Below are positions 1,142 to 47,810 of a DNA stretch of 47,810 nt, piece by piece. Location of the stretch: NCBI GenBank assembly GCA_017441765.1, contig JAFRVK010000015.1:1-47810 (forward strand). Direction: 5' to 3'. A program made the translations under genes and the position numbers. The stretch comes from Erysipelotrichaceae bacterium. GTDB taxonomy: Bacteria > Bacillota_I > Bacilli_A > Erysipelotrichales > Erysipelotrichaceae. Position 1 is the first letter of the stretch. The number at the start of each line of letters is the position of its first letter. A model generated the notes under the pieces. That model did not search any database, was not told the DNA's origin, and saw only the letters and a list, made by a program, of their open reading frames with translations.

Positions 1142-1235
1142 ACGGGTTTGCAGCAGATTATCTTCATTTTGCATGCAATATTCCGGTTAGTATTCCCTTG
1201 AATCCGATATTGTGCATCGTCATGCGTCTGCTTCT

Positions 1236-1263
1236 TTGTTTAAAGAAAAGAAAGGGTTATAAT
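1236..1263 (+). promoter_or_regulatory. hypB promoter, leaderless
   Basis: TATAAT lies at 1258-1263 with a weak -35 (TTGTTT, 1236-1241) 16 bases upstream. The expected transcription start, 7 bases after the -10, falls on the A of the hypB ATG at 1270. No Shine-Dalgarno sequence precedes that ATG. Confidence 0.55.
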
Positions 1264-1269
1264 CTAGAC

Positions 1270-24300: not shown

Positions 24301-24336
24301 TTATAAAAAAGAGCTATAAAACTAGTTTATAGCTCT
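24301..24336 (-). terminator. Terminator of the LCP operon
   Basis: A perfect 11-bp stem, AGAGCTATAAA (24310-24320) and TTTATAGCTCT (24326-24336), with a 5-base loop that contains part of the LCP stop codon. On the minus strand it is followed by TTTTTTATAA. The hairpin overlaps the end of the coding region. Confidence 0.8.
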
Positions 24337-27189
24337 GTTTCTGTGTCTTATATTTCCCGGGTGATATGCATCTCCGCCCTCTCCGGGATCCGGAGTTTCA
24401 CAGGCGGAACCGGACAGCATATAGTTCTCAATCCATAGAACTGCTCCGCATCTTGTACATGAATGCGTAATCTCACCATCAGCTTCTGTACAACTGGTTG
24501 CCGTCTTAGTTACAACACCTCCGTCATCGTTGTGGCCTAAAGCAGGAATTTCTTCGGTCGTTCCGCATCTGCTGCAATGTTTCGATCCGGAAGACTCGCA
24601 GCCCGGTTCAGAATCAACGACCCAGTCGTGGCCTTTGGCAGGAATCACTTCTACCTGTGTTTCGTTGCAGTTCGGATTCTTGCAGTATCTTGACTTTTCA
24701 CCGGCTTCCGTACAGGTCGCCTCTTTGGTGACTTCCCAGTCGCTCCAGTCATGATTGTGTTTCAGTTCCCATCTTGCGTACAGAGTACATTCTCCGGTGA
24801 TATCTGCCGTACTGGTGACTTTTTCGCCTTTGGTGTAATCCTTGTTGGTATACCAGCCTTTGAAGATATAGGTATCGCCATTGCTTTCCTTGACATCATT
24901 CATGCTCGGCAATGCTTTCGGATCATCTCCGGTAGTGACTGTGATGGTCTTCGGCACATCCTCTTTGTTGCCGTGGCCGTTGCGATCGAACTTGATGTCG
25001 TACTGACCGGCTCTGACCAGGACAGTGACATGATCATCGATCTCATCGATTGGCGTATAAGGTTCAGGTGACTGTTTCATGATCTTGCCGACCGGTACTT
25101 CCGCATCGTCATCGACTTCATACTTCACCTTGACTTTGACGTTGTATTTCTCGCCCCATTCCTTTGCCTTCTTCGCGCTGTGTCCGATAAAGTCCGGAAC
25201 CATCTTCGATTCGTCGATGACATTCGGACCCATGACATAGATCGTGCCTGAAGGATATTCACTGACAAGCGAACCGTAACGGGCCGACTGTTCATAGACC
25301 AGACCGGCATAGTCCGCATCATAATTGGCATCGCCCTTCAGGATGTATTTGACAGACAGAGAAACGCCGTTGGCCGCCGCCCAGGATTTTGCCTGAGATT
25401 CCGTCAGACCGACCAGCGTCTGCCAGTAGGCAGGCATCGGATCCGGGGTGAACAGGAAGTTGTTGTCGTAATCAGACGAGATCAGATCCGGCCTGATGTA
25501 TTCGTTGTCCATGGAGAAGATCAGGTTCCTGGACTGGGACATGCTGTTGTATCTTCCCATGACGTTGTTGATGTGTTCGAGCGAATCATCATAGGAACCC
25601 TGATAGACCAGGTAGACCCACAACGGAAGTCTCATGGAATAGCTGTAATACATGATGCCGCCATATCCGGTGATACGGGTATTGTCGAACTCGATCAGAT
25701 CGAAAGTATCCAGTCCCGTATAGTTCCTGGTATTCAGCAGCATATTGAAGACGGTCGTCAGCTGAGACAGAGGCATGTCTGTCGACATCCAGTCGGATGC
25801 TTCATCCATCGCATTGAGTGCCAGCGTCAGGTCTCCGGAAGAAACCAGCTTCTTGGCGATCGCAATGATGACTTCTTTCTGATGCTTCTGACGGTCGAAG
25901 TCGCCGTTAGGCATGTGGTGTCTTTCACGGCAGAACTGCAGCGCCATCTGGCCATCCGCAAACACATGATCGCCAGCCGGCACATAAATGCCATCCAAAG
26001 TGAATTCCACCGGGTTATCGATATAGATGCCGCCGATCGTATTGACGATCTGAACCAGACCCAGATAGTCCAGCTCCATGTAGTAGTCCATCTCCATATC
26101 CAGGAAGTTTTCTACCGTTTCAATGAAGCAGGCTCTTGACGTCGAACGGCCCGAGTTGATCTTGTCGTATTCTCCGCCGTAGCAGGGGATCGGTACGAAC
26201 GAGTCACGGGCGATCGAAGTCATGGACACGGTATAGGTCTGCGGATTGATGGTCGCCACAATGATGGAGTCGGCCAGTCCGACAGGAGATCCGATATCCG
26301 TTCTCGAATAACCGATCAGCAGTACATTGAACGGATCGGTCATGACGTTTTTGATCGTCTTATTGTTTTCGATCTTCAGTTCTTCTTCAAACGGATTGAA
26401 ATCGATCAGATCCTTCATATAGATCGCAAACGGTGAAGATTCGCCTTCATCGATGACGAAACCTTCTTCGCCATCTTCCGTATCTTCCACTTCTTCCTCT
26501 TCCTCGACAGGAGCGGCAGCCGTATCCTCGCTAGGACCATAGATCTTGCGGTAGCCGGAGTTGATGACGATCGCATCGACATCGCCGTCGATCAGCGCCG
26601 TCATCAGTTCCGTATTCGTGTTGTAGTCAACCGTCGCATAGTCGATCTTGGCATCTGCCAGGATCTTCTGGGCAAGATAGGTGATGCCGTTGCTGGTCTC
26701 CTTCAGCATGCCCACTCTCTGGCCGGCCAGTTCTTCGACGGAATGGAAGGTGTTGTATCTGTTGTAGCAGACAAAGACACCCGAGAACGTCTCATATTTA
26801 TCAGAGGTTCCATCATCGAAGACGTTGTTGACGATGGAATTGGTTTTTGCCAGATAATAGGAACCGCCGACTCCGCCGACCATCAGGAACAGAGCCAGTA
26901 CCGAGGATATGATCTTCAGAGCCAGGTCATTATGATTGAAACCGACAAAAAAGATGATATCGATGATCAGCATGAGCAATAACAAAATTGCAGAAACGCA
27001 GCCGTACAGCGTCGGATAGATCGCCCGGTAGCGCCATGACCACCAAAGGATCAGAAGGATCGTGATATGCGCAATCACCAGAACAGCCAGCGCAGACAGA
27101 GTAAGGATACTGTTTCTGGTGAGTCGCGAACGCTTCTTCTCAGTCGTTATCGGAGTCTGTTTCTTCTTCAGATTCATTAACTTCTTCAT
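24322..27189 (-). CDS. Multi-module LCP (LytR-CpsA-Psr) surface protein, 955 aa
   Basis: LCP enzymes transfer lipid-linked glycans or teichoic acids to peptidoglycan. Modules in order: three membrane helices (about 28-112); a segment resembling a solute-binding domain (about 133-217, ELAGQRVGM and LIDGDVDAIV); an acidic linker; the LCP catalytic domain (about 283-560) with ADSIIVATI, TSIARDSF, DKINSGRS and CRERHHMPNGDFDRQKHQ (near 420). Two PASTA-like segments follow (about 580-725), then an InlB-type B-repeat (about 725-810, GWYTNKDYTKGEKV), then Cys-rich repeats around GHDW and CxxC pairs to the end. No LPXTG is present; the helices are the anchor. ATG 27189 has GAGGAAG upstream and overlaps the preceding gene by 50 bases. 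It sits downstream of the polysaccharide genes it probably serves. Confidence 0.85.
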   Translation of the reverse strand: MKKLMNLKKKQTPITTEKKRSRLTRNSILTLSALAVLVIAHITILLILWWSWRYRAIYPTLYGCVSAILLLLMLIIDIIFFVGFNHNDLALKIISSVLALFLMVGGVGGSYYLAKTNSIVNNVFDDGTSDKYETFSGVFVCYNRYNTFHSVEELAGQRVGMLKETSNGITYLAQKILADAKIDYATVDYNTNTELMTALIDGDVDAIVINSGYRKIYGPSEDTAAAPVEEEEEVEDTEDGEEGFVIDEGESSPFAIYMKDLIDFNPFEEELKIENNKTIKNVMTDPFNVLLIGYSRTDIGSPVGLADSIIVATINPQTYTVSMTSIARDSFVPIPCYGGEYDKINSGRSTSRACFIETVENFLDMEMDYYMELDYLGLVQIVNTIGGIYIDNPVEFTLDGIYVPAGDHVFADGQMALQFCRERHHMPNGDFDRQKHQKEVIIAIAKKLVSSGDLTLALNAMDEASDWMSTDMPLSQLTTVFNMLLNTRNYTGLDTFDLIEFDNTRITGYGGIMYYSYSMRLPLWVYLVYQGSYDDSLEHINNVMGRYNSMSQSRNLIFSMDNEYIRPDLISSDYDNNFLFTPDPMPAYWQTLVGLTESQAKSWAAANGVSLSVKYILKGDANYDADYAGLVYEQSARYGSLVSEYPSGTIYVMGPNVIDESKMVPDFIGHSAKKAKEWGEKYNVKVKVKYEVDDDAEVPVGKIMKQSPEPYTPIDEIDDHVTVLVRAGQYDIKFDRNGHGNKEDVPKTITVTTGDDPKALPSMNDVKESNGDTYIFKGWYTNKDYTKGEKVTSTADITGECTLYARWELKHNHDWSDWEVTKEATCTEAGEKSRYCKNPNCNETQVEVIPAKGHDWVVDSEPGCESSGSKHCSRCGTTEEIPALGHNDDGGVVTKTATSCTEADGEITHSCTRCGAVLWIENYMLSGSACETPDPGEGGDAYHPGNIRHRNRAIN

Positions 27190-31258: not shown

Positions 31259-32679
31259 TTTTCAAGCTCCGCCTTTTTCATGGATATCAGATAGATGAAC
31301 GGTGTGGCATAGACACCGTACTTGTTGAGGACGATGCTCAGCATCGTGACAGCAAAGATCCCCAGCAGCGCCAGTCTGTAGTTCTGCACTGCCATTGTGT
31401 CTTCTTTTGTGGCCTTATACACGTTATGCACGGTCGCCATGAACAGATAGATCACTGCGCTGAGGATCAGCAGAAGATAATACACGATATCGGACATCTG
31501 TCCGTAAACATGGGCCATTTCGATCGGATAATGATCGCCGCTCCACAGAAGATAGAATTTGTGAACGATCAGTCTCAGTAACGTCACAGGATGGGTCAAA
31601 AGATACCTGTACTGTCCAAGGAGTACGGCTTTCATGCCGGTAAGATAGTTTTCATTGTTGTATTCCAGGCCTTCTTCAGCCAGATAGAGGCAGGTCTGTT
31701 CATGAGGATAGCCGTCGACCTGTTCCCCCAGAGCATAGGGGTTCGATCCGTGGATCAGAATGGTATAGGTATTCGTCGCCGTTTTATAGCTGTTGACCTC
31801 CAGATACCGGTCAAGAAAACGCGAACCGAGAAGAGCCAGCACCAGAATGGCGATGACTGCGATCTTCTTCTGGGGGATTGTCCTGCTTAATACGGCGATC
31901 AGCAGCAGGATCACATAGATGATGTAGCCCACCGGATTGACGAAGACCGCCAGGATCGTAAACAATGTGCACACTGCAGCAAGCAGGATCGTTTTTCCTG
32001 TATCTTTGCATTTCAGCAGCTGATTGATGAAATACAGGAAGGCTGACAGATAGAAGTAGAGAAATACTTCATGGGTCGGGCAGAAACTGTATAGGATCGA
32101 GGAAGGCATCAGCAGGTAGATCGCAAACAGAAGAAAGCTTTTTTCTTTTCCGACGATATCCGTGAAGCTCAGAAAGTTGATCAGCGTCCCCAGGAAGAAC
32201 GGAAGAAACATGCCGTGCCGGATCGGGATATGCAGAAGCTTGAACGGCACGAAATGCAGAGCGACCGCAAACAGATGGGAGATCGCCTTGGAGCGCAGGG
32301 TGCCTGATGCGATGATCTGATCGGCGATCTGGTCATAGAGCTGTGTATCCCCGCCTGTCGTCGCATCGAAATCAAACAAGACCGTATAAAGGATCCTGAA
32401 AATGATCATCAGCGCTGCAACGATCAGAAGCAGCGTCTTTTCATCATATTTCTTCAGGCGATCAAGCAGGCTTCCAAGAACGCTTCTGATCCTGTCCTTT
32501 CCAAAATGGATCACTGCCAGATAGAACAGGATCAGCACGGCATAGATCACATAACGGAGATAACCTTCAAAGGTGCTGGTAAATACATAGAGCGTTACCG
32601 CGGGAATGAACATAAAAAAGAGATCCGTCAGGATTCCGATCAGTTTATTGAACCATCCGTAATAGTTATTCTCCATCAT
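31255..32679 (-). CDS. GT-C type membrane glycosyltransferase, 474 aa
   Basis: About eleven membrane helices with the first extracytoplasmic loop holding acidic residues (DFDATTGGDTQLYDQIADQI shows Asp-rich positions near 103-121), the plan of GT39/GT83 transferases. These use polyprenyl-phosphate sugars outside the membrane; the GtrB-like protein of this operon would supply the donor. The ATG at 32679 (or the next codon, also ATG) lies inside the end of rfbD by 14 bases. No sequence feature fixes the sugar or acceptor. Confidence 0.75.
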   Translation of the reverse strand: MMENNYYGWFNKLIGILTDLFFMFIPAVTLYVFTSTFEGYLRYVIYAVLILFYLAVIHFGKDRIRSVLGSLLDRLKKYDEKTLLLIVAALMIIFRILYTVLFDFDATTGGDTQLYDQIADQIIASGTLRSKAISHLFAVALHFVPFKLLHIPIRHGMFLPFFLGTLINFLSFTDIVGKEKSFLLFAIYLLMPSSILYSFCPTHEVFLYFYLSAFLYFINQLLKCKDTGKTILLAAVCTLFTILAVFVNPVGYIIYVILLLIAVLSRTIPQKKIAVIAILVLALLGSRFLDRYLEVNSYKTATNTYTILIHGSNPYALGEQVDGYPHEQTCLYLAEEGLEYNNENYLTGMKAVLLGQYRYLLTHPVTLLRLIVHKFYLLWSGDHYPIEMAHVYGQMSDIVYYLLLILSAVIYLFMATVHNVYKATKEDTMAVQNYRLALLGIFAVTMLSIVLNKYGVYATPFIYLISMKKAELEK

Positions 32680-33547
32680 TCATCTCTTTTAAATATCTTG
32701 CCAGAGCATCCTTCCAATCAGGCAACGGCGTAAAACCGCTCTCGATCAGTTTATGCTTGTCCAGACGGGAATTGAAGGGACGGACCGCCTTGCTGAGACC
32801 GTATTCCGTGGTCGTCACAGGAGTCACTTTAATGTCTACACTGGCCTGTCTGTAGATCTCCTTGCAGAAGTCGTACCAGGAGATGTAGCCGCCTTCGTTG
32901 GTCGCATGGTAGTAGCCATATTTCTCTGTCTCGATCATGTCCACCAGAAGTCTTGCCAGATCATAGGTATAGGTCGGCGTGCCGATCTGGTCATTGACGA
33001 CTCTGACTTCGTCATGATTCTTTGCGACTTTCAGCATCGTCCGTACGAAATTGTTGCCATGCAGTCCGAAGACCCAGGCGATACGGACGATAAAGTATTT
33101 CTTCAGTGTACAGACGGACAGTTCTCCTTCCAGCTTCGTCTGCCCGTAGTAGCACAGCGGCGCATAAGACTTGTCGTCAGGCTCCCAGGGACGTTCCCCC
33201 TGTCCGTCAAAGACATAATCCGTACTCAGATACAGAAGTTTGCAGTCCAGTTCCCTGGCGGCTTCCGCAAGATTCTGCGTGCCTGTCACATTGACCGCGT
33301 AGACCTTGGGCTTGTTTTCTTCGTCTTCTGCCGCATCCACTGCCGTCCATGCCGCGCAATGGATGATCGCATCCGGAGCGATATCGACGATCTCTTTCAC
33401 GCATGACGAAGAAGTGATATCGATCAGATGATCGACATCACCGGTAATATCCGTCGTGATCGGAGTATGCCCCTGTTTCTTTAAGCGATCGGTCACATCA
33501 TGGCCGAGCTGACCGTTCGCACCTGTAACTAAAACTCTCATATTCAT
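32666..33547 (-). CDS. rfbD: dTDP-4-dehydrorhamnose reductase
   Basis: Last step of dTDP-L-rhamnose synthesis; 293 residues. NAD(P)-binding GANGQLGHDV (8-17), the YLSTDYVFDG segment, and the YxxxK pair in YYGQTKLEGE (about 132-141) are present. A second ATG two codons in is possible. The gene has an extended -10 promoter just upstream and starts a tightly overlapped run of five genes ending with the initiating transferase. Confidence 0.94.
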   Translation of the reverse strand: MNMRVLVTGANGQLGHDVTDRLKKQGHTPITTDITGDVDHLIDITSSSCVKEIVDIAPDAIIHCAAWTAVDAAEDEENKPKVYAVNVTGTQNLAEAARELDCKLLYLSTDYVFDGQGERPWEPDDKSYAPLCYYGQTKLEGELSVCTLKKYFIVRIAWVFGLHGNNFVRTMLKVAKNHDEVRVVNDQIGTPTYTYDLARLLVDMIETEKYGYYHATNEGGYISWYDFCKEIYRQASVDIKVTPVTTTEYGLSKAVRPFNSRLDKHKLIESGFTPLPDWKDALARYLKEMNDGE

Positions 33548-33561
33548 TTCTTTCGTTGAAG

Positions 33562-33570
33562 ATTATAACA
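33562..33570 (-). promoter_or_regulatory. Extended -10 promoter candidate before rfbD
   Basis: TGT-TATAAT on the minus strand, with TATAAT at 33567-33562 and the TG of an extended -10 directly before it. No clear -35. The leader would be about 8 bases with no real Shine-Dalgarno. Confidence 0.4.
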
Positions 33571-33584
33571 CAGTGCCCTGAAGG

Positions 33585-34604
33585 CTATCTGTTCCCGTAC
33601 ATCTGTTCGTAGTAGTGAAGGTAGTCGCCTGAAGTGACTTCATCCATCCAGTCCTGGTGATCCATGTACCACTGTATGGTCTTCTTGATGCCTGTATTGA
33701 AGTCGTAGACAGGTTTCCAGCCAAGTTGCGTTTCGATCTTGTTAGGATCGATCGCATATCTTAAGTCATGTCCCTTGCGGTCTGTGACATAGGTGATCAA
33801 AGATTCAGGCTTGCCCAGTTCATGAAGGATGGTCCTGACCACTTCGATGTTGGCTTTCTCGTTGTGTCCGCCGATGTTGTAGACCTCGCCGTTTCTGCCG
33901 TTTCTGATGATCAGATCGATGCCTGAGCAGTGGTCGTAGACATGCAGCCAGTCCCTGACGTTGAGTCCCTGTCCATAGACAGGCAATGATCTGTCATGTC
34001 TTGCGTTGTTGATCATCAGGGGGATGAGCTTCTCCGGAAACTGGTAGGGACCGTAGTTGTTCGAGCAGCGGGAGATGGTCATGTTGAGTCCGAAGGTCCT
34101 GTGATAGGCCATGACAAGAAGATCTGCGGAGGCCTTGGATGCACTGTATGGGGAGCTTGTATGGATCGGAGTGTCTTCCGTGAAGAAGAGATCCGTTCTT
34201 TCTAAAGGAAGATCGCCATAGACCTCATCGGTGGAGACCTGGTGGTATCTCTTGACTCCGTACTTCAAGGAGGCATCCATCAGCACTTCCGTGCCGATGA
34301 TGTTGGTGCGAAGGAAGAGCTCGGGATCCTCGATGGATCTGTCCACATGGGATTCCGCGGCGAAATTGACCGCGATGTCGAAGTTCTCCTCTTCAAAGAG
34401 CTTATAGATATTCTCCCTGTCGCGGATATCCATCCTGACGAAACGGAAATGCTCGTTGTCCTTGCAGCCGTCAAGATTCTTGAGATTGCCGGCATAAGTC
34501 AAAAGATCCAATGCGACGATCTCATCCTCGGGATGCTTCTCAAGCTCATAGTAGACAAAGTTGGATCCGATAAAGCCGGCTGCTCCGGTGATTAAAATCT
34601 TCAT
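33585..34604 (-). CDS. rfbB: dTDP-glucose 4,6-dehydratase
   Basis: Second step of dTDP-L-rhamnose synthesis; 339 residues. It has the Rossmann start ITGAAGFIGSNFVYYEL, HVSTDEVYGDL-type motif QVSTDEVYGDLP, the catalytic YSASK (about 152-156) and the GxNxRDWLHVYDHC segment. AGGAGG at 34620-34615 serves the ATG. It is separated from rfbD by 37 bases that hold a promoter candidate, and from the PTS gene by a terminator. Confidence 0.96.
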   Translation of the reverse strand: MKILITGAAGFIGSNFVYYELEKHPEDEIVALDLLTYAGNLKNLDGCKDNEHFRFVRMDIRDRENIYKLFEEENFDIAVNFAAESHVDRSIEDPELFLRTNIIGTEVLMDASLKYGVKRYHQVSTDEVYGDLPLERTDLFFTEDTPIHTSSPYSASKASADLLVMAYHRTFGLNMTISRCSNNYGPYQFPEKLIPLMINNARHDRSLPVYGQGLNVRDWLHVYDHCSGIDLIIRNGRNGEVYNIGGHNEKANIEVVRTILHELGKPESLITYVTDRKGHDLRYAIDPNKIETQLGWKPVYDFNTGIKKTIQWYMDHQDWMDEVTSGDYLHYYEQMYGNR

Positions 34605-37481: not shown

Positions 37482-37505
37482 AAAAAAAGGGTATGGATAT
37501 ACCCT
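37482..37505 (-). terminator. Terminator of the rfbAC-lipoprotein transcript
   Basis: AGGGTAT (37488-37494) and ATACCCT (37499-37505) form a 7-bp stem with a 4-base loop, followed by seven T on the minus strand. It touches the stop codon of the lipoprotein gene. Confidence 0.85.
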
Positions 37506-38440
37506 CATTCGTTCCAGGATGCATAGATCCCGTCGACCACCGCCTGGACATAATCGTCCCTGCCGTAGACGGAAGGATACAGTGTCGTGGTATAGGTGTG
37601 ATTCGTATGAAGGATCAGTTCGCCGAGATTGTTGAGATGTTCCCCGGCAGAAGTCAGGACCACGCCTGTGCCGTCCTTATTGGCGACCGCTTCCCCGGAG
37701 ATCTCCGTATGGGAATGTGCATCAATGACCACGTCGATTCCCGTCGTGTTGGCAATCAGGTCATAGGAGCTGAAACCCTCGGTCACGCTGTTGGAGCCCA
37801 GATGGGACAGGACGATCACATATTCCGCCCGGTTGCGGACCTTGTTGACTGTCTTCTGGACCTGGTCATACAGTTCCTGTCCTTCATCATGTTCATAGAA
37901 GGAATAGACAGGCTGGCCATCGACCGTGATCGCATCATAGGCCGGCTTGTCCGGGATCAGTGTTTCCGGGGTCGTTACGCCGATAAAGGCGACACGGACT
38001 TTTCCGAATTTTTTGATGAAATACGGCTTGACTGCCTTCAGAGGATCTTTGCCTGATCCTTTGTACAGAAGATTGCAGCTGACATAATCGAACTGGGAAT
38101 TGCCGATGTTTTCCTTCAGATGATCCAGTCCGACAGAAAACTCCTGATTCCCCAGTGTTACCACATCATAGCCGACCGCATTCATGACGGTCACGATATC
38201 GGCGCCGCAGCTCAGTACAGAAATATCCCCATCGAAATAGTCTCCGGCATCGACCAGAGCCACAAAAGGATGTTCCGCGAGAAGCTGGTCCTTATAGGCT
38301 TTCACGCCTGCATAAGAGACGCCGTTGTTCATGGCGCTGGCAACATCGTTGGTAAACAGGATATAGATGTCTTCTGTCTGTTCATGGGAACAGGAACAGA
38401 GGAACAATATCAATAAGATGAAACTAAATATTTTCTTCAT
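37505..38440 (-). CDS. Degenerate 5'-nucleotidase-like lipoprotein
   Basis: A lipoprotein signal peptide (residues 1-16, lipobox LCSC, lipidated Cys17) leads into a 5'-nucleotidase/UshA-like metallophosphatase domain. Motifs: FTNDVASAM where TNDxH is normal; DAGDYFDG intact; GNQEFSVG where GNHE is normal; LSHLG intact; DAHSHTE intact. So two active-site histidines are replaced, by Ala and Gln. The C-terminal nucleotide-binding domain of UshA is absent, and the mature protein is about 295 residues. I prefer ATG 38440; ATG 38455 would add five residues. The start overlaps rfbC. It may be a non-catalytic or altered-specificity protein. Confidence 0.75.
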   Translation of the reverse strand: MKKIFSFILLILFLCSCSHEQTEDIYILFTNDVASAMNNGVSYAGVKAYKDQLLAEHPFVALVDAGDYFDGDISVLSCGADIVTVMNAVGYDVVTLGNQEFSVGLDHLKENIGNSQFDYVSCNLLYKGSGKDPLKAVKPYFIKKFGKVRVAFIGVTTPETLIPDKPAYDAITVDGQPVYSFYEHDEGQELYDQVQKTVNKVRNRAEYVIVLSHLGSNSVTEGFSSYDLIANTTGIDVVIDAHSHTEISGEAVANKDGTGVVLTSAGEHLNNLGELILHTNHTYTTTLYPSVYGRDDYVQAVVDGIYASWNE

Positions 38441-38996
38441 AAATGAAATTGGCATTGCATTCTTTGAATGAAGGAGCCGCCTTGTCTTTGTCCGACAGGA
38501 TCAGTTCCACATCCGTCAGTGAACCCCAGTCGATCTTGAGATCGGGATCATCATAACGGATCGCTCCTTCGGCTTCTTTGTGATAGAAGTTGTCGCACTT
38601 ATACTGGAACAGCACTTCATCGCTCAGTGTCATAAAGCCGTGGGCCATGCCTCTTGGCAGGAAAAACATGCGTTTGTTTTCTTCACTGAGGACGCAGCTG
38701 GTCCATTGTCCGTAAGTCGGGCTCCCTTTGCGCAGATCGACTGCAACATCGATGATCTCGCCTCTGATGCATCTGACCAGTTTTGCCTGGGCATAGGGAT
38801 CCAGCTGATAATGCAGACCTCTGAACGTGCCCTTGATCGCGCTGTAGGACAGATTGTCCTGTACGAAATCATTCGTGATTCCCAGCTCATGGAATTTCTG
38901 TTTCGAATAGGTCTCCATGAACCAGCCGCGGTGATCGCCGAAGCAGTCGCTCTCGATGATGCAGACTCCGGGAATCTTCGTATCGATCCTTTTCAT
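38424..38996 (-). CDS. rfbC: dTDP-4-dehydrorhamnose 3,5-epimerase
   Basis: Third step of dTDP-L-rhamnose synthesis; 190 residues of cupin fold. SDCFGDHRGWFMETY, FVQDNLSYSAIKGTFRGLHYQ and the HGFMTLSDEVLFQYKCDNFY segment are characteristic, and the catalytic His lies in GLHYQ. The start ATG 38996 is chosen for its 6-base spacing from GGGAG; the preceding ATG at 38999 also fits. Its start overlaps the rfbA stop. Confidence 0.95.
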   Translation of the reverse strand: MKRIDTKIPGVCIIESDCFGDHRGWFMETYSKQKFHELGITNDFVQDNLSYSAIKGTFRGLHYQLDPYAQAKLVRCIRGEIIDVAVDLRKGSPTYGQWTSCVLSEENKRMFFLPRGMAHGFMTLSDEVLFQYKCDNFYHKEAEGAIRYDDPDLKIDWGSLTDVELILSDKDKAAPSFKECNANFIYEENI

Positions 38997-39877
38997 CATT
39001 CTCTCCCTTCGGCAACCGCTTTCAGATGCTCGCCGTATGGCGATTTCCCATAACGCTGCGCACTGTCCAGCAGTTCTTTCTTGCTGATCCATCCATATTT
39101 GAAGCCGATTTCTTCGGGAGCGGAAATGACATAATTCTGTCTCTTGGAGATGATCTGAACAAAATTGGAGGCTTCCAGAAGCGAGTCCATCGTTCCGGTA
39201 TCCAGCCAGGCGAAGCCTCTTCCCAGAAGCTGCGCATCCAGCTTTTTCCTTTGCAGATACATGTCGTTCAGAGTCGTGATCTCCAGTTCGCCTCTTGCGG
39301 ATGGTTCGACTTTTTTGGCCATTTTGGAGACGCCTGACGGATAGACGTACAGACCGGTGATGCAGTAATTGGATTTTGGTTCCTTCGGTTTCTCTTCGAC
39401 GGAAAGGACTCTGCCTTTCTTATCAAACTCAACGATTCCAAAGCGCTGCGGATCATTCACATGATAGCCGAAGATCGTCGCTCTTTTCTTTTCTTCAGCG
39501 TTAGCGACAGCCTGCTTCAGCACATGAGAAAAACCGTCGCCAAAAAAGATATTATCGCCCAGAACCATGGTGCATGCATCTTTTCCGATGAATTTCTCGC
39601 CCAGGATGAACGCCTGTGCCAGGCCATCCGGTGAAGGCTGTACGCAATAGGAAAGATTTACACCAAACTGATGTCCATCGCCAAGGAGCTGTTCGAATCT
39701 CGGCGTATCGTTCGGTGTGGAAATGATCAGGATATCCCTGATCCCTGCCAGCATCAGCGTGCTTAAGGGATAATAGACCATCGGCTTGTCATAAACCGGC
39801 AATAGCTGTTTGGATGTTACCATCGTGATCGGATACAGACGTGTTCCCGAACCTCCGGCTAAGATGATACCTTTCAT
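38996..39877 (-). CDS. rfbA: Glucose-1-phosphate thymidylyltransferase
   Basis: First step of dTDP-L-rhamnose synthesis; 293 residues. The N-terminus has [14 protein letters not shown] (5-18), and [19 protein letters not shown] and [10 protein letters not shown] are typical. GGAGGT lies 8 bases before the ATG, which overlaps the stop of the 593-residue transferase (ATGA). Together with rfbC it is separated from rfbB and rfbD by the lipoprotein and the PTS operon. Confidence 0.96.
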
Positions 39878-41655
39878 GCTTGTTTACCTCCATGGGTGAT
39901 GATTTCATTCAGTTCTTTATAGGCATCCTTCGATGGGAAAACGACATAGTTCATGTCTCTTTCCCCGTACTTGCGGATGAAGTGTTCTTTCAGTGTTTCG
40001 CTCTCGCAGACCAGGACATCGGCTTTCGCGTAGAAGACTTTCTCGATGTCGTTGGTGACCATTTCGGTGTGGATGTTGGAGAGTTCACGATATTTTTCCG
40101 GAACGGCGCCATGGCTGTCCCAGATCGTCAAAACATTCGGAAGATCAAAGATCCTGTACATATCGCTGGAGATCTTTTCCCGTATGAAACGGATGACGCT
40201 GTGGATGACGCAGACACCGCTGCTTTGGATCATCGCCAGGATCGCTTCAGTCTGTGCCATATCGAAACTGTTGAACGCGATATTCGCATGGTCCTCATCG
40301 ATAAAAGTGGTATTGAGATGCTCAAGACCGCGCGGTTCCCCATCCAGATAGATGCGGTAGCAATCTTTCAGGATTTCCTGGTCGAACAGGGAAACCTCTT
40401 TCCGGTAGTCGCTGTTTGTTTCATCGTGATAAGGCGCGATCACAAAGACCGTTTTCTTTTCCTGAATGATCTTCTTGAGCTTCTCGGTATTCTTGTGATA
40501 CTGCCGGTTCTCTCTGTATTCTTCCAGCTTCTTGTCGATCTTCTTCTTCAGCCAGTCCGGGAAATCCTTTCCCTGTTCCTGTATCTTGCGGTAGACACGC
40601 TTGAAGAAGAACAGCGTTTTCGCAGGCAGGAATCCGGGGATCCTTCCATAGCTTTCTCTTGCCCTGAAATCACCGGTCATCTTCTGATAGTAATCCGGAG
40701 CAAGTACCCTTAGGGAATATTTCTCATCGGCTTCCTTGAGGCATTCTTCAGAGATCTTCTTGCGCAGTTTCGTATTCTCGATCAGTTCGCTGATCGCATC
40801 CACCCATTCTTCGGTCGTGTTGTTTACCAGGAGGCCATTCTCGCGATCCCGGATGCCGAAGACATAAGGTTCGCAATTCGTATAGATCCCCGCGATCCCG
40901 AAGGATGCGTATTCCACATACTTGTTGAAGTACTTGCAGCGATGGAACTCGCTTAAGGGCATCGGCGCCAGCCCGATATCCCAGTTGCAGCGTGCCATGA
41001 AAGCCGTATAGGCATCATAGCCGTCCTGGTACGGAAGATATTTCAGATTCAGTTCTTCCAGAAAATCCGGTCTGGCTCCCATGAATTCGATCTCGATCGA
41101 ATCACCGTATTTCTCAACGATCCTCCGTATCGCCTCTTCCAGGATCACGTTGACATCCTGAGCCCGGTCGATCGAACCGGCAAAGCCGATCTTGACCTTG
41201 TCGTTTGTTTCTTTCTGATCGATGCGGTTCAGTGACGGTTCACTGATCAGGTGGCAATGTTTAAAACCGTTGCCGTACTTTTCTTTCAGTATTGGTGAAG
41301 GCGTCAGAAAAGTATCGCAGCAGGACATCGTCGCACGGATATTCTTCTGGGTCGAAGGAAGCAGATAATATGGCGCACTGCTCAGATACGATGGAACATT
41401 CAGTATATCATCATCCAGAAAATAGACCAGATGTTTTCCGGCTTTCCTGGCGATCTTTGCGACATAGGCATCGATATCGGTATCGCTTCGTCCGAAAACG
41501 ATGACATCCGCCCATTCGACGTTCTTTCTTTTGACGAAATGCGACGGGACGAATTTATAGTTGATCGTGCCCTGTTTTTCCATATAATCCAGCTGGCAGT
41601 GTCCGCACAGCAGGACAGACGGAATAAAGGTCGTTGACAGCATCAGTACGTTCAT
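39874..41655 (-). CDS. Two-module glycosyltransferase, 593 aa
   Basis: Residues 1 to about 345 form a GT4-like transferase. [21 protein letters not shown] is the usual GT-B hinge start, and [16 protein letters not shown] plus [17 protein letters not shown] are the nucleotide-sugar region. A basic helical linker (about 350-410) follows. The rest (about 410-593) resembles the N-terminal, acceptor-binding half of another GT-B protein ([29 protein letters not shown]) without a donor-binding half. I set the start at ATG 41655, with AGAGGG upstream; the longer open frame runs into the ATPase gene. It probably extends the rhamnose polymer. Confidence 0.8.
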
Positions 41656-41663
41656 GAATCCCT

Positions 41664-42395
41664 CTAAGACTTGCGATAGGCTTCGCAGACCTTCCTGGTC
41701 TTGCCTTTCATGACGACTTTGCCCTTGTCCAGCCAGATGACCTGGTCGCACATTTCTTCGATCTTGTCGAGATCGTGGGATACAAACAGAACTGTCGCGC
41801 CGCCGCTCATCAGTTCCTTCATGCGGTTGTAGCTCTTCTCCTGGAAGGCTACGTCACCTACCGCCAGGATCTCATCAACGATCAGGATCTCGGGCTGTAC
41901 CACGGACGCGATGGAAAAAGCCAGTCTGGCCATCATGCCTGATGAATAGTTACGTATCGGCATATCGATGAATTCACCGATCTCCGCAAAGTCGACGATC
42001 TCATCGAACTTGGACTGCAGATACTCTTTGGAATAACCCAGAATGGCGCCATTGAGATAGATGTTCTCTCTGCCTGTCAGTTCCAGGTCGAAGCCCGCTC
42101 CCAGTTCCAGCATCGGGACGACATTGCCGCGGACGATGATGGTGCCTGTGGTCGGTTTTAAAATACCGGAAATGAGCTTCAGCGTTGTGGACTTGCCTGC
42201 GCCGTTCTTGCCGATCAGCCCCAGGGTCTTTCCCTTCTCCAGATCGAACGAAACATCGTCCAGAGCCAGGAATTCGTTGTATTTCAGTTTGCCCGACAAT
42301 GCCGTCGTAAAGATCTCCTTGAGGGAGTTGATCGGCTCATCGGACATCCGGAATTTCATTGATACATTTTTAACTTCAATCATCTTTTCTGCCAT
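41664..42395 (-). CDS. Polysaccharide/teichoic acid exporter ATP-binding protein
   Basis: A 243-residue ABC ATPase. It has Walker A GKNGAGKST (62-70), the signature YSSGMMARLAFS, Walker B ILIVDEILAVGD and the switch His in VLFVSHD. It matches TagH/Wzt/RfbE-type exporters of lipid-linked glycans, but lacks the C-terminal glycan-binding domain of Wzt. It pairs with the permease just upstream, 9 bases apart. Confidence 0.93.
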   Translation of the reverse strand: MAEKMIEVKNVSMKFRMSDEPINSLKEIFTTALSGKLKYNEFLALDDVSFDLEKGKTLGLIGKNGAGKSTTLKLISGILKPTTGTIIVRGNVVPMLELGAGFDLELTGRENIYLNGAILGYSKEYLQSKFDEIVDFAEIGEFIDMPIRNYSSGMMARLAFSIASVVQPEILIVDEILAVGDVAFQEKSYNRMKELMSGGATVLFVSHDLDKIEEMCDQVIWLDKGKVVMKGKTRKVCEAYRKS

Positions 42396-42404
42396 AGGAC
42401 ACCT

Positions 42405-43820
42405 CTACAGATACAACGCGAAACGATCCTGCGTTTTCTTAAACGTATAGGAACCGATGATCAGTGAGACCATTGCGAACAGGAAACAGTACAGGTAAGC
42501 GGAAGGCTCCGGCGAAACGCCGTTGATCAGACAGGTCCTCGCATTACCGATAAAGTGATACAGCGGATTGATCCTGACGATGAATTTGAATTTGTCCGGA
42601 ATGATTTCCGCCGGATAGAAAATAGGAGTCGCATACATCCAGATCTGAGTCAGCACGGTCCACAGGAACTGGATGTCCCTGAAGAACACCATCAGCGCCG
42701 ACAGGAACATGCCTATTCCCAAAGCGAACACGATCAGGCAGGCCAGGAAATAGAAGAACAGCAGCGCCTGCGGACGGATCGGTACACCCAGGATGAGACA
42801 GGCCAGTACCAGCGGTACCAGCGAGATCGCCAGGTTGATGGAAGAAGAAATGCTTCTTGACAGCGGGAAGATGTATTTCGGGATATAGACCTTCGTGATG
42901 AGTCTCGCATTGGCGCTGATCGAAGACAGGCACATCGTCGTACATTCGCTGAAGAAGCTGAAGCAGACGACACCGCTCAAAAGATAGACCGGATAATTCT
43001 GGGTATCCGCCGTAAAGAAGGTCGAGAATACCAAGAACTGTACCGTCATCGTCATCAGAGGATTCAGGAAACTCCAGAAAACGCCCAGGATGGATCTCTT
43101 GTATTTTGATTTGAAATCTCTCAGGACCAGCTGGGAGATCAGGAAACTGTATTTATAGACTGCCAGAATTCCGCGGATCAGATAGTTGAACCTGTCATTC
43201 ACATAGGACTTGTAGGAAACATAAAGCAGGACAGCCAGCGCGGTCACAAGTGCAGCCGCCAGGTACCAGTAGTATCTGCCGATCCAGATCTCATCCGAAC
43301 CGTTGACCGAGAAGCATAAGGAACCTTTCACAGATCTTCCGTCGACCAGGATCGTTCCATCCGAGAGCCCCTGATTCATCATGACCGCAGCGGCAGATCC
43401 TTCCTGAGAATCCCCATAGATGCGCATCGTGACCGTTTTTCCCCGCTGATTGCGGATCGGCCTTACGATACGCAGGAAAAGTCTCTGCTGCTCAGGAATG
43501 TCATCCATATCGAAAACCTGCTTGAACAGGAGGCTGGCATCTTCTCTCAATTCGATCGTGACCGTTCCCTTTGCTTCCTTGTAGAATTTCGTAAAGACGA
43601 TACCGATCTGTTCGATCTTGTCCATCTCGCAGACAAAATCCTGACTGATCACCCTTCCGGAAATCAGTTCATCGCTGACCGAATCCGCATCCTGCAGATC
43701 GATCGGATGAACGGTGCTCTTATAGACCAGCTGATCTCCGGCCAGAAAATAAAAAGCTCCGACCATGACCATAAAGATCAGCTCGGTGATCAGGAATAAG
43801 CGTTTGATCGTCTTTTTCAT
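42405..43820 (-). CDS. Exporter permease with extra extracytoplasmic domain, 471 aa
   Basis: Residues about 225-471 are an ABC-2 type permease of the TagG/Wzm class (six helices; RDFKSKYKRSILGVFWSFLNPL, FFRDIQFLWTVLTQIWMYATPIFYP). Most such permeases are about 260 residues. Here an added N-terminal part has one helix (about 6-25), an external beta-rich domain (about 30-180, ISQDFVC, VDGRSVKGSLCFSVNGS) and a second helix (about 185-205). The domain is related to the whole of the next protein upstream. The ATG at 43820 is preferred; TTG 43841 and ATG 43832 are alternatives. Confidence 0.88.
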   Translation of the reverse strand: MKKTIKRLFLITELIFMVMVGAFYFLAGDQLVYKSTVHPIDLQDADSVSDELISGRVISQDFVCEMDKIEQIGIVFTKFYKEAKGTVTIELREDASLLFKQVFDMDDIPEQQRLFLRIVRPIRNQRGKTVTMRIYGDSQEGSAAAVMMNQGLSDGTILVDGRSVKGSLCFSVNGSDEIWIGRYYWYLAAALVTALAVLLYVSYKSYVNDRFNYLIRGILAVYKYSFLISQLVLRDFKSKYKRSILGVFWSFLNPLMTMTVQFLVFSTFFTADTQNYPVYLLSGVVCFSFFSECTTMCLSSISANARLITKVYIPKYIFPLSRSISSSINLAISLVPLVLACLILGVPIRPQALLFFYFLACLIVFALGIGMFLSALMVFFRDIQFLWTVLTQIWMYATPIFYPAEIIPDKFKFIVRINPLYHFIGNARTCLINGVSPEPSAYLYCFLFAMVSLIIGSYTFKKTQDRFALYL

Positions 43821-43821
43821 A

Positions 43822-44343
43822 TCAGTTTCCATAAACCGCAAAACAAATCGTTCCTTTCAGCGTCTGGCCATCGAGCCGGTAGTATGCTTCGGTTTTTTCA
43901 TCGATCATCAGCGCGAGACCGATATCGCTGCCAGACGCGATGCTCAGCGTAAGAGAATGCCCCTTGACTTTGCTGATTCCCACAGGAATGCGGGTACGGT
44001 GCTGGTCGGAGATCTCTCTGACAGGAAGCGTCAAAGAGAAGATGATATCCTGACCTTCCAGTAAGCTTATGTTCACATCCTCTTCATTCGTGTCATCGGT
44101 CTTATTGAAGATGATCACCAGTTCTTTGATCGTGTCATAGGGACAGGTAAAATCCTGACTGACTTCCGTGCCTCTTCCCAAAAGAGAGCTGACAGTCGTC
44201 GCGTCATGGATCTTGGTGACATCGAGCGAATCATTTCCGTTCAGACGGGAATGCCAGTGTTCTGAAAACATGAAGACGAAACTGACGGCAACGATTGCCA
44301 GCGCAGCAACGATCAGCAGGTTTTCTTTACGACGTCTGTCCAT
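43822..44343 (-). CDS. Accessory protein, stand-alone copy of the permease domain, 173 aa
   Basis: An N-terminal membrane helix (about 9-26) is followed by an external domain. It matches the N-terminal domain of the adjacent permease: VSQDFTC against ISQDFVC, ELVIIFNKT against QIGIVFTKF, and LDGQTLKGTICFAVYGN against VDGRSVKGSLCFSVNGS, all in the same order. The stop lies 1 base from the permease start I chose. It probably sits beside the exporter at the outer face of the membrane. No known family name comes to mind. The promoter in front of it leaves a leader of only about 3 bases. Confidence 0.75.
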   Translation of the reverse strand: MDRRRKENLLIVAALAIVAVSFVFMFSEHWHSRLNGNDSLDVTKIHDATTVSSLLGRGTEVSQDFTCPYDTIKELVIIFNKTDDTNEEDVNISLLEGQDIIFSLTLPVREISDQHRTRIPVGISKVKGHSLTLSIASGSDIGLALMIDEKTEAYYRLDGQTLKGTICFAVYGN

Positions 44344-44364: not shown

Positions 44365-45276
44365 TTAGATATAGTTTACTAATACCAGGATGAGATAGAA
44401 GAGATCGTTAATGGTATGGGAGCGGAAGCGTTTGTCCCTCAGGAGCACTTTCTTCAGTTTTGGATCTTCACGGTATCCGGCGACTGCTTTCAGTAATGCC
44501 AGCTTTTCTTCGGAACACTGATCGCCGTAGACTTTCAACAAGGAACGGGCTGTCTCGCTGCGGTAATTGCGGATCCTGCCATGAAGAAAACGGTGTATCC
44601 TTCCGGCAAAGGTCTTGAAGACATCTGCGGTCATGCCGATCTCATTGTTTGAGTGCTGACGGTAATAAAGATAGGAATGCTCATCCAGGATCATCCTGCC
44701 GAACATGGTGACGACTTTGTGGATCAGGGCGTCATGGATGACGAAATATTCCTGATCGACGTCATACGGCAGCAGTTTTTCTCTGGCGGCATGATTGAAC
44801 ACAAACGTACAGCCCGGTGCCGTGTGATACAGCAGGGCGTGCGGGAAATCGGAAAAGTTATAGAGAGAGGACACCTTGGAATCGATGGGATTCAGGTTTT
44901 CATCCGTCAGTGTGAATTTGGAACAGTACAGCAGTGCCTGGTCCTCATCTTCCTGTTTCAGGGCAGCGATCGCCTTTTCCAGCTTCTCAGGCATCCAGAC
45001 ATCATCCTGATCGCACAAGGCATAGTAATCCGCTTCCTCGCAGGTTTTGATCAGTTCCCAGAACGACCTCCCCGCTCCCAGATTATTGCCACGGTAATAT
45101 GAAATGCATTTATTCTTCTCGGAATATGCTTCCAGGATATCGATGGTTCCGTCGTTCGATCCGTCATCGCGGATCAGTATCCTGTCCGGCTTCAGAGTCT
45201 GGTTCAGTAAAGAATCCAGCTGCTGTGCCAGATACTTTTCTCCGTTATAGGTAGACATCAGAACGGTCAGTTTCAT
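44365..45276 (-). CDS. Glycosyltransferase family 2, 303 aa
   Basis: A GT-A fold transferase. It has LMSTYNGEKYLAQQLDSLLNQTL (5-27), IRDDGSNDGT (35-44) and the donor-metal CDQDDVWMPEKL (about 88-99), in the pattern of rhamnosyl and related transferases. The C-terminal 100 residues are helical and basic. The start overlaps the stop of the next gene upstream (ATGA), so the two are coupled. Rhamnose is a plausible donor because dTDP-rhamnose genes are in the locus. Confidence 0.9.
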   Translation of the reverse strand: MKLTVLMSTYNGEKYLAQQLDSLLNQTLKPDRILIRDDGSNDGTIDILEAYSEKNKCISYYRGNNLGAGRSFWELIKTCEEADYYALCDQDDVWMPEKLEKAIAALKQEDEDQALLYCSKFTLTDENLNPIDSKVSSLYNFSDFPHALLYHTAPGCTFVFNHAAREKLLPYDVDQEYFVIHDALIHKVVTMFGRMILDEHSYLYYRQHSNNEIGMTADVFKTFAGRIHRFLHGRIRNYRSETARSLLKVYGDQCSEEKLALLKAVAGYREDPKLKKVLLRDKRFRSHTINDLFYLILVLVNYI

Positions 45277-46373
45277 TGCAGTACCTCATCGATGACCTGA
45301 AGGCATTTTTCTTTGAAGATCGCTTTACTGAAATTCTGCTGATAGAACGCATAGATGTGTTCATTGTTCTGACGCAGCTGTTTCAGCTGCTTTGCGGACA
45401 CGATGGAATCTTCGGCGACATTGATGCCAAGATCATTCTTTTCGACCATTTCATAGGTATCGCCCTTGATATTGTTGATGATCGGCAGTCCATGCCCGAA
45501 ATAATCGATGCATTTGACAGTCAGTCCGATATAGAGGCCGTCCTTGTAGATATTGATGCCGGCATGGCATTTGGAAAAGATCTCGCTCTTGCGCTGTTCA
45601 TCCCGGATCTCTCCGTAATAGATGACTTCACAGATCCTGCTGAGCTCATTGACGAACGCCTCTCTGCTCTCTCCGTCTCCTACCACATGCAGCGTGACGT
45701 GTTCATCGATGTGCGATATGATTTTCGCTATGGCGTCGATATCGATGATGTGATTGATCGAACCCAGATACAGAAGAGACAGTCCATTCCCCGACAGACG
45801 GTCAGGCTGCCGGACAAATTCCTCATCTTTTGCCCAGTGGATCGTTGTGATCTTTCCGCTGTATTCTTCTTTCAGGATCTGCTGATAGAAATCGCATTCG
45901 CTGACCAGATGATCGGCACAGTAGAGATGCTTCTTTCGCACATTGCGCCAGAGACTGAACGGAAAGGCGTGCATGTCATATCTGAGCGGCAGAGATTCCG
46001 GCCACATGTCGATGATATCGATGATGATCGGTGCATGAGGATGTTTGCGCTGATAGCGTGCCGCTTCTTTGATCAGGGAATTGGCCGGAGCGATGACCCA
46101 CAAAAGATCGGCATCTTCCTGTCCGATCAGATCGAAAGCGTCTTTCGCAAAGCGGCGATGCGATAAAAGACGTGTCAGAGAAAGATTGCGGTAGTAGGGT
46201 TTTGTTCTGATGGCATGGTATCCTTCCGGAATGCTGTTGCGGACCGTCTTGCGGACATGCGAAAAATCCGAGGTGATGACTCTGACTTCATACCCTCTTT
46301 CTTCACAGGCCTCTTTCACGAAAGCGACCCGTTCCTCGTTTGATTCATAACAAGTTACGATCGTTACTTTCAT
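45273..46373 (-). CDS. GT4-type glycosyltransferase, 366 aa
   Basis: A GT-B fold enzyme. The N-terminal half has the VTCYESNEERVAFVKEACEERGYEV start and IIDMWPESLPLRY; the C-terminal half has SLLYLGSINHIIDIDAIAKII, HVVGDGESREAF and FSKCHAGINIYKDGLY. The final E-x7-E is weak: KCIDYFGHGLPIINN stands where EYMASGLPVV is common. The ATG at 46373 is the family start; an open frame to 46451 would overlap the next gene. It has a poor ribosome binding site. Confidence 0.86.
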   Translation of the reverse strand: MKVTIVTCYESNEERVAFVKEACEERGYEVRVITSDFSHVRKTVRNSIPEGYHAIRTKPYYRNLSLTRLLSHRRFAKDAFDLIGQEDADLLWVIAPANSLIKEAARYQRKHPHAPIIIDIIDMWPESLPLRYDMHAFPFSLWRNVRKKHLYCADHLVSECDFYQQILKEEYSGKITTIHWAKDEEFVRQPDRLSGNGLSLLYLGSINHIIDIDAIAKIISHIDEHVTLHVVGDGESREAFVNELSRICEVIYYGEIRDEQRKSEIFSKCHAGINIYKDGLYIGLTVKCIDYFGHGLPIINNIKGDTYEMVEKNDLGINVAEDSIVSAKQLKQLRQNNEHIYAFYQQNFSKAIFKEKCLQVIDEVLQ

Positions 46374-46386
46374 GGTTTCAATCTGT

Positions 46387-46791
46387 TTATATATCCCTGA
46401 TTCCGGCAATTTCGCAATAAAGACTGATCGCGTTTCTGACACACTGATCACAGGAACACAGCGGTTTCCCGTCGGTCATCTGTTTCAGATCCCGGCATTT
46501 CGTCGCTCCCGACAGTTCTTTGAAGCCTTCGATCAGTTTCCGGGAAGACAGCAGTGTTTTTTCTCCCTTTGTGGATAGGCCGAGGATCATGTTTGCGGCA
46601 ATCAGAGAACCGCAGGTCGCTTCCATGTTTCCCATGCCTCCGCCAAAACCGGCACCCAGCTGATGCAGCGTTTCTTTATCAAGATCCGTCTGATCTTTCA
46701 GCGTCTCCAGTATCGCCTGCGCACAGTTGCAGCTGCCGCTTTTTCTCAAGGCGGAAGCCTGTTCCATCCGATCCTGTACCGTTCTATTCAT
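46387..46791 (-). CDS. C-GCAxxG-C-C family Cys-rich protein, 134 aa
   Basis: A small cytoplasmic protein of the family named for its Cys pattern. It shows SCNCAQAIL, GAGFGGGMGNMEATCGSL, CRDL, and CSCDQCVRNA near the end. In the family the conserved cysteines may bind a metal or take part in redox chemistry; the role is unproven. The start ATG 46791 is preferred because AGAGGG precedes it, the same spacing as before the 593-residue transferase. ATG 46806 is possible. Its place inside a polysaccharide operon is odd. Confidence 0.78.
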   Translation of the reverse strand: MNRTVQDRMEQASALRKSGSCNCAQAILETLKDQTDLDKETLHQLGAGFGGGMGNMEATCGSLIAANMILGLSTKGEKTLLSSRKLIEGFKELSGATKCRDLKQMTDGKPLCSCDQCVRNAISLYCEIAGIRDI

Positions 46792-46805
46792 AAATCCCTC
46801 TTTCA

Positions 46806-47810
46806 TCAGTTCATGAATGTATATGACAACACATATACGACGACTTCATAGACCAGCAGGATGAAAATGTAGATGATGTAAGGTTCGAACTTCTTGCTGA
46901 TCTTCAGTTTCGGATTATGCAGGATGATAAACAGATAGGGCAAAAACGGACTGAAATAACGGCCCTGGATACCCTGAATGATCGGCCCTCCGTAATCTTC
47001 GATGACCACCTGTTCGACTTCCGTCCATGAGATCAGCATGCCTCCGACCATCATCAGACCGCCAAAGATGCAAAGCAGGAAGGTCACGATCTTGAAGGCC
47101 AGCGATTCGCAGCGTTTTTCCTGAATGATCGACGAGCCGATCAGCACTGCAAGCAGAGAGTGTACGATCCATGTCGGCAGGATCAGCGTGCTTCCTGAAA
47201 GAGCCCGGCCGAATGCCGCATAGAACCAGGTCTTGATACTGTAGCGGACGGTACGAAGGAAGAGTTCGATCATCTCCAGAGGATGAGACAGAACATCATC
47301 GAACGTATAGACGACGCCATCGACATGGAAAGGCTGGATGATATCGTTCTGGACAGCCGTTTCCGCTTTCAGCAGATGATATACAGATCCCGCAGCTTCA
47401 CCGGACAGCGCTCTGAAAACCGCTTTGAATACACGGATCGTCAGAGGTCCCAGCAGCCTGACCAGTTCAAACATCGCCGGGAAAGTGATGATCAGGGTCA
47501 TGAGGATCTTCTTTTTCCTGGAACCGAAGTTCTTTGCCGGAATGAACCAGTACATCAGCGTAAACAGACCGTAGACGACTTTGATCGGCGCGATCATCAG
47601 ATTGGCGATGAAAGCCAGGATGAATTCCCTGATACTGATCGGCTCTTCCTGATGCATCCATTTCAAAAGATAGGCGATGATCACAAAGGTCAGACCATTG
47701 ATGAAACAGTCATATGAAAAGCTTGCCGCCTGCTGCATGAAGATCGGCAGGGTCGCAATGATGCCGAAAAGCACTTTATGAACCGGCGTCTTCTTGATCG
47801 CCGTATAGAG
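46806..47810 (-). CDS. DUF2142-type membrane protein, C-terminal part
   Basis: The reading frame is open to the window edge, so the N-terminus is missing; about 334 codons are visible. There are eight or so membrane helices. PIFMQQAASFSYDCFINGLTFVIIAYLL near the edge resembles the conserved core of DUF2142 proteins, found in surface polysaccharide loci and thought to act on lipid-linked sugars. A GTG at 47774 is an internal codon. The end overlaps the next gene only at the stop codon. Confidence 0.75.
   Translation of the reverse strand, partial: LYTAIKKTPVHKVLFGIIATLPIFMQQAASFSYDCFINGLTFVIIAYLLKWMHQEEPISIREFILAFIANLMIAPIKVVYGLFTLMYWFIPAKNFGSRKKKILMTLIITFPAMFELVRLLGPLTIRVFKAVFRALSGEAAGSVYHLLKAETAVQNDIIQPFHVDGVVYTFDDVLSHPLEMIELFLRTVRYSIKTWFYAAFGRALSGSTLILPTWIVHSLLAVLIGSSIIQEKRCESLAFKIVTFLLCIFGGLMMVGGMLISWTEVEQVVIEDYGGPIIQGIQGRYFSPFLPYLFIILHNPKLKISKKFEPYIIYIFILLVYEVVVYVLSYTFMN

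Follow-up and report, generated by a model that had tools for sequence, protein, structure and literature searches.

Within the window—the whole stretch of 47,810 nucleotides from an Erysipelotrichaceae bacterium analysed here—the gene of a small membrane protein, the permease gene of an ABC exporter, and its cognate ATPase gene follow one another on the minus strand (Table 1). The first of these, hereafter the solo gene, is separated from the permease gene by one base (TGA-T-ATG), the ATPase gene comes directly next, and glycosyltransferases and rml-like genes surround the three. A few genes upstream of the exporter, in the same operon, lies a gene for a DUF2142 protein. Because glycosyltransferases and dTDP-rhamnose genes occur here with an RgpCD-like exporter, the substrate may, by analogy, be a rhamnose-type cell-wall polysaccharide, and the permease would then be the membrane component of an ABC exporter that handles such a lipid-linked polymer. 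Two smaller features of the surroundings were recognised by eye: first, a gene for a small protein rich in Cys and similar to C_GCAxxG_C_C redox proteins (46387-46806, minus strand) lies between the DUF2142 and GT4 genes and has no counterpart at that site in L031, the closest relative, in which the DUF2142 gene is followed by the GT4 gene at a distance of 14 bases; and second, a 5'-nucleotidase-like lipoprotein gene occurs within the glycan operon of both the window (37505-38455, minus strand) and relatives (L043:5828-6787).

Table 1. Features of the exporter locus, with positions in the window; limits of the permease transmembrane (TM) helices were read off the sequence.
Feature	Position	Strand	Remarks
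dTDP-rhamnose genes rmlB + rmlD	32666-34604		assigned by eye from sequence
dTDP-rhamnose genes rmlA + rmlC	38424-39877	(-)	assigned by eye from sequence
Glycosyltransferase	39874-41751	(-)	downstream of ATPase; listed start perhaps too far upstream
Exporter ABC ATPase	41664-42395	(-)	243 aa; ABC_tran E 4.6e-22
ABC-2 permease	42405-43820	(-)	471 aa from ATG 43820
Permease regions (residues)			TM ~8-27; external domain ~40-178; TM ~184-205; ABC-2 core 222-471
Small solo protein	43822-44343	(-)	173 aa; one N-terminal TM helix and external jelly-roll domain (predicted, ~residues 41-173)
GT2 glycosyltransferase	44365-45276	(-)	immediately upstream of solo gene; kept beside solo/permease pair in relatives
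GT4 glycosyltransferase	45273-46367	(-)	start set by L031 homologue
DUF2142 protein (putative GT-C glycosyltransferase)	46806-47810	(-)	N-terminus truncated at contig end

Only the C-terminal half of the permease resembles solved exporters. The Pfam model ABC2_membrane (PF01061) matched residues 228-428 alone (E 1.6e-19), the NCBIfam Wzm/RfbD model matched the protein at E 3.6e-21, a score under that model's curated cut-off, and residues 227-464 matched the solved Wzm-type chains 6m96 and 6oih (E 1e-22) as well as TarG (6jbh). Solved relatives (seven sequences, 254-307 aa) align solely with residues 220-470; with its 471 residues, the permease is not of the short form seen in solved Wzm and TarG proteins and instead belongs to a long Bacillota subfamily with an external domain. 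The first-pass annotation, made from the letters of the DNA, had described the extra N-terminal region as a helix, an external beta domain, and a second helix ahead of the ABC-2 core, and this layout was borne out. In known Wzm structures, the amphipathic N-terminal helix of the core is cytosolic. Since this helix follows the two TM helices that flank the domain, we infer from the established topology that the permease domain faces the cell exterior.

The same annotation had taken the adjoining 173-aa protein for a duplicate of the permease domain, on the strength of an alignment by eye. This alignment proved correct, including its SQDF-C and KG-CF ends. Compared with permease residues 1-175, the solo protein gave a BLASTP score of 61 bits (E 7e-16, 31% identity over 134 aa), an alignment score ~25 s.d. 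above 2000 composition-preserving shuffles, and a profile-profile match to the N-terminal region (E 1.1e-51, 173 columns), values on which chance similarity was rejected. Similarity of the TM helices only was likewise dismissed, as the BLASTP alignment falls in the soluble part.

Sequence searches of four collections turned up no named relatives of the domain: Pfam holds no family for permease residues 1-220 or for the solo protein at E<=1, NCBIfam and PHROGs gave no match at a usable E-value, and no solved chain in the PDB fell below E 0.1. It thus goes without a Pfam or NCBIfam name and appears to merit a family model of its own. AF2 models of the solo protein (pLDDT 89.1) and of a homologous domain from a DUF2142 protein (pLDDT 88.8; see below) share the same strand order, and their lists of top PDB neighbours contain the same folds, ranked almost alike. 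Heading the list are a phage phi812 baseplate domain (Z 14) and a PBCV-1 capsid protein (Z 12-13), joined by mycobacteriophage tail tips, carbohydrate-esterase modules, and several CBMs. Among neighbours of the solo model, the Cwp84 lectin-like domain reached Z 10.2 (2.7 A over 123), the CBM BT0996-C Z 9.2 (2.6 A over 106), and CBM6/35-type folds Z 7-8, with BcsB as a weak Foldseek match (E 0.017); a library of viral structures yielded nothing beyond tail and capsid proteins of generic jelly-roll type. The models accordingly predict a CBM-like jelly-roll. Sugar binding would be in keeping with such a fold, although a jelly-roll by itself is no proof of it.

A third copy of the domain, on the N-terminus of the DUF2142 protein, is a new finding of this analysis. 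The nearest relative of the window's truncated gene (91% identical; genome G017, L031:5361-7433) is intact and carries the same external domain at its N-terminus, and at every locus of the genus with an intact gene the protein begins with a TM helix, the external domain, and a second TM helix, the Pfam DUF2142 region starting only from about residue 230. By hhalign, this N-terminal domain matches the permease domain at E 3.5e-15 and the solo protein at E 2.8e-12, and HMM matches between it and the permease and solo domains are reciprocal, reaching 4e-15. DUF2142 domains and the permeases of other genera share a near-invariant motif, TYxRxNxG; permeases of the genus retain its R and G, whereas each of these two residues survives in only 1 of 13 solo copies, which instead carry an invariant QHR. 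Because the solo copies have lost these two residues, their role may differ. The earlier suggestion that the domain hands glycan over to the LCP machinery found no support; the domain is tied instead to the DUF2142 proteins of the same operon. That all three proteins of one operon carry the same domain also fits the main rival to a glycan-handling role, namely that the external domains serve as docking modules, which bind one another rather than glycan and hold exporter, solo protein, and DUF2142 protein in one outer-face complex. We regard this as a secondary possibility, on the unlikely side, and return to it below.

The long permease turned out to be common, in contrast to the solo gene. 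Among contigs of GTDB genomes we found 234 relatives of the permease, and 79 of the best 80 loci encode the long form; permeases of 470-500 aa occur in Erysipelotrichaceae, Oscillospiraceae, Lachnospiraceae, Butyricicoccus, Faecalibacterium, Caproiciproducens, Paenibacillus, and others. Given how widespread these full-length, domain-bearing permeases are, the domain profile built from the genus must be too narrow, as it retrieved just three carriers, this genome included, among 392 genomes drawn evenly across the phylum. The statement that typical TagG/Wzm permeases lack the domain therefore holds for solved proteins of the TarG, Wzm, and KpsM types but not for Bacillota at large. Within the window's own genus, an orthologous permease is present in 19 genomes and carries the domain in 18. 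A solo gene beside the permease was found in 14 genomes (13 distinct sequences), always directly upstream and, among 147 relatives, in this Erysipelotrichaceae genus only; outside the genus, no small gene was detectable within up to 6 kb on either side of the permease at the best 80 of the 234 loci. The pair that had been proposed for a search in other Erysipelotrichia thus recurs within one genus and, among the relatives and loci covered, in no other. The extra domain of the permease is ordinary in a large Bacillota subfamily, and the free-standing copy adjoining it is the genus-specific part; both the wide spread of the former and the restriction of the latter had been overlooked by the first-pass annotation.

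Long permeases without a solo copy were found in genomes G016, G025, G004, and G023, and their existence, together with a permease in G012 that has lost the domain, implies that neither the domain nor the solo gene is strictly needed for export. Genome G025 has two long-exporter loci on different contigs (L045 and L046), both lacking the small gene; at L045, an acyltransferase-like gene occupies its place. Elsewhere in the order, other genera have solo copies directly beside DUF2142 genes instead, the neighbour lacking the domain at L116/L201 and having an N-terminal region of its own at L115, L218, and L220 (the L218 and L220 matches came from a pooled profile, at E 1e-14 and 5e-12). These pairings place the solo domain with a membrane partner in more than one setting. 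Such recurrent solo-plus-partner gene pairs would suit docking; on the contrary, most long permeases have no solo copy, and the 6-kb flanks of most loci in other genera contain no DUF2142 gene carrying a detectable domain.

In a tree of 81 domains, the solo proteins group with 14 permease domains of the genus (clade support 99/97), and 72% of bootstrap trees trace the solo proteins to a single origin; the DUF2142 domains of the genus fall apart from this clade. The solo copy at L115, from outside the genus, also falls within the clade, on a long branch that makes its placement unsafe. In a tree of permease cores, a single clade (100/99) takes in each of the 13 loci with a small gene, along with G016, which has no small gene, and G012, whose core nests among those of the solo-bearing loci. 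Most simply, and with moderate support, these trees suggest that one duplication of the exporter domain gave rise to the small gene. In G012, the permease (L077:9668-10648, 326 aa) is 70% identical to the window's in its core and keeps both TM helices, while the external domain between them is gone and the small gene is absent as well. This suggests that G012 lost both—a single event, but one that a joint function of small protein and permease domain would predict.

The solo protein might alternatively be a spare part, a duplicate of little function carried along by the operon. Its occurrence in one genus, its absence from G016 and G012, and its fast divergence would all accord with this: mean identity is 0.39 for the solo protein and 0.46 for the permease domain, whereas permease core and ATPase reach 0.83 and 0.87, respectively. 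We nevertheless judge this account improbable, because in 14 genomes, at identities as low as 20%, the gene has stayed intact and in close coupling, because QHR, G, C, and F residues are invariant among the solo proteins, and because solo protein and permease domain co-diverge. The gap between the two genes ranged from -4 to +3 nt at 13 of 13 junctions, a spacing typical of translational coupling. Pairwise distances of solo proteins and permease domains correlated at r 0.82 across 11 loci, with a partial r of 0.77 (permutation p 0.0002) given permease core, GT2, and ATPase; with more controls, at eight loci, the partial r was 0.51-0.54 (p ~0.01). The two therefore co-diverge beyond their neighbouring genes, a result that docking would also predict. 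Co-divergence of the solo protein with the DUF2142 domain, on the other hand, was not significant (partial r 0.19, eight loci), which counts against a complex of all three. Gene conversion was rejected as the cause, since identity to the own partner (0.336) is close to that between loci (0.323) and the own partner ranked first in only 2 of 8 cases; shared recombination of adjoining genes could be a source.

Domains that handle glycan are not new to this class of exporter. The Wzm-Wzt exporters of O-antigen and the TarG-TarH exporters of teichoic acid share the ABC-2 core and likewise export lipid-linked glycans, and carbohydrate-binding domains are known accessories in this class (PMC9445017). 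In Wzt, however, the carbohydrate-binding domain is cytosolic and sits on the ATPase, whereas the domain described here is external, sits on the permease, and is duplicated as a separate protein. It is conceivable that the external domain stands in for that of Wzt, with the substrate recognised from outside. The lengths of the ATPases speak for such a replacement: those by long permeases are short (69 of 70 below 280 aa), those by domain-less relatives measure 320-380 aa in 6 of 9 cases. By Pfam, the window's ATPase has only ABC_tran and overlapping P-loop matches, without the Wzt-type C-terminal domain. We consider the replacement quite improbable all the same, given that the loci compared for ATPase length are not independent, that the ATPase of the genus is short even where the permease domain has been lost (L174), and that a domain on the outside is unable to select a substrate before transport; moreover, Pfam detected no Wzt C-terminal family in the longer ATPases of domain-less relatives. 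As a separate observation, where the permease has no external domain (L069, L071-L073, L076, and L115), its ATPase often measures 320-380 aa and ends in a C-terminal extension unmatched in Pfam, versus ~243 aa for ATPases by the long permeases.

A further comparison is TagGH of B. subtilis, a Gram-positive glycan exporter in which an SH3b-like domain follows a TM helix and lies on the outer face (PMC11466899), although that domain is carried by the nucleotide-binding subunit and its predicted fold is a different one. The cytosolic domain of Wzt and the outer SH3b-like domain of TagGH demonstrate that glycan-handling domains are acquired by exporters of this class. Two further systems offer working analogies for an outer-face module. 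In KpsMT-KpsE, separate membrane subunits encircle the capsule exporter on its outer side as the KpsE cage (PMC11041684); KpsE is larger and of another build, whereas the partner considered here is a copy of the domain on the permease itself. In cellulose secretion, BcsB is membrane-anchored, with regions like carbohydrate-binding domains placed by the emerging polymer (PMC11379886); its partner is a synthase rather than an ABC exporter, and no sequence relation to the domain was found. On the side of the third copy, DUF2142 proteins (WpsI, WpsJ, and YcaA-like) and the Emb GT-C enzymes are membrane glycosyltransferases of the outer face. In lactococcal and streptococcal loci, the former have been proposed as polymerases or side-chain transferases (PMC12599335, PMC9746298), and mycobacterial Emb proteins carry lectin-like carbohydrate-binding modules (PMC3044687). 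The external domain of the DUF2142 proteins lies outside the Pfam DUF2142 model. Literature searches worded for an exporter with an outer carbohydrate-binding domain or for a GT-C enzyme with a jelly-roll yielded no direct precedent.

We consider the chances about evenly balanced that an outer-face, CBM-like domain and its solo duplicate handle the emerging glycan at the exporter. The architecture and its evolution are well supported; contact between solo protein and permease, binding of glycan, and hand-over are presumed. On this model, the N-terminal insert of the permease (TM, jelly-roll, TM) would present the domain on the outer face, next to where the channel opens, and the solo protein, a genus-specific duplicate on its own TM anchor, would add to the exporter a second copy that differs from the first. 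Together, the two domains could then catch or steer the glycan as it emerges and hold it near outward-facing enzymes, above all the DUF2142 protein, a putative GT-C enzyme with the same domain. Glycan recognition and a hetero-oligomeric cap had both been put forward in the first-pass annotation; the CBM-like fold and the co-divergence are compatible with them without amounting to proof. More tentatively, and with distinctly less confidence, this unnamed modular domain may be a common part of outer-face glycan assembly in Bacillota—as a fusion with ABC exporters or with DUF2142 proteins, or free as a solo adaptor that makes the outer cap hetero-oligomeric—and might couple export physically to decoration outside the cell.

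How Gram-positive bacteria handle a lipid-linked polysaccharide after ABC export, and how export is coupled to the addition of side chains outside, is poorly understood. An external domain common to an exporter and an outward-facing glycosyltransferase gives a concrete handle on this question, including in Faecalibacterium, Butyricicoccus, and Paenibacillus, and a genus with two co-diverging copies, alongside a species without both, offers natural experiments. In this gut bacterium, the exporter domain and its solo copy suggest a glycan handling station at the exit from the cell.

Elsewhere in the window, two further loci deserve mention. An LCP (LytR_cpsA_psr) protein at 24322-27189 (minus strand) carries PASTA repeats, a Listeria-Bacteroides repeat, and an extra N-terminal stretch (residues 132-216) like NMT1/phosphonate-type solute-binding domains, which is an unusual combination. 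At 1198-2606 (plus strand), two adjoining, overlapping frames are both HypB-type GTPase-like by their P-loops (ASPGAGKTTLL and SAAGSGKTTLL), indicating a tandem duplication.
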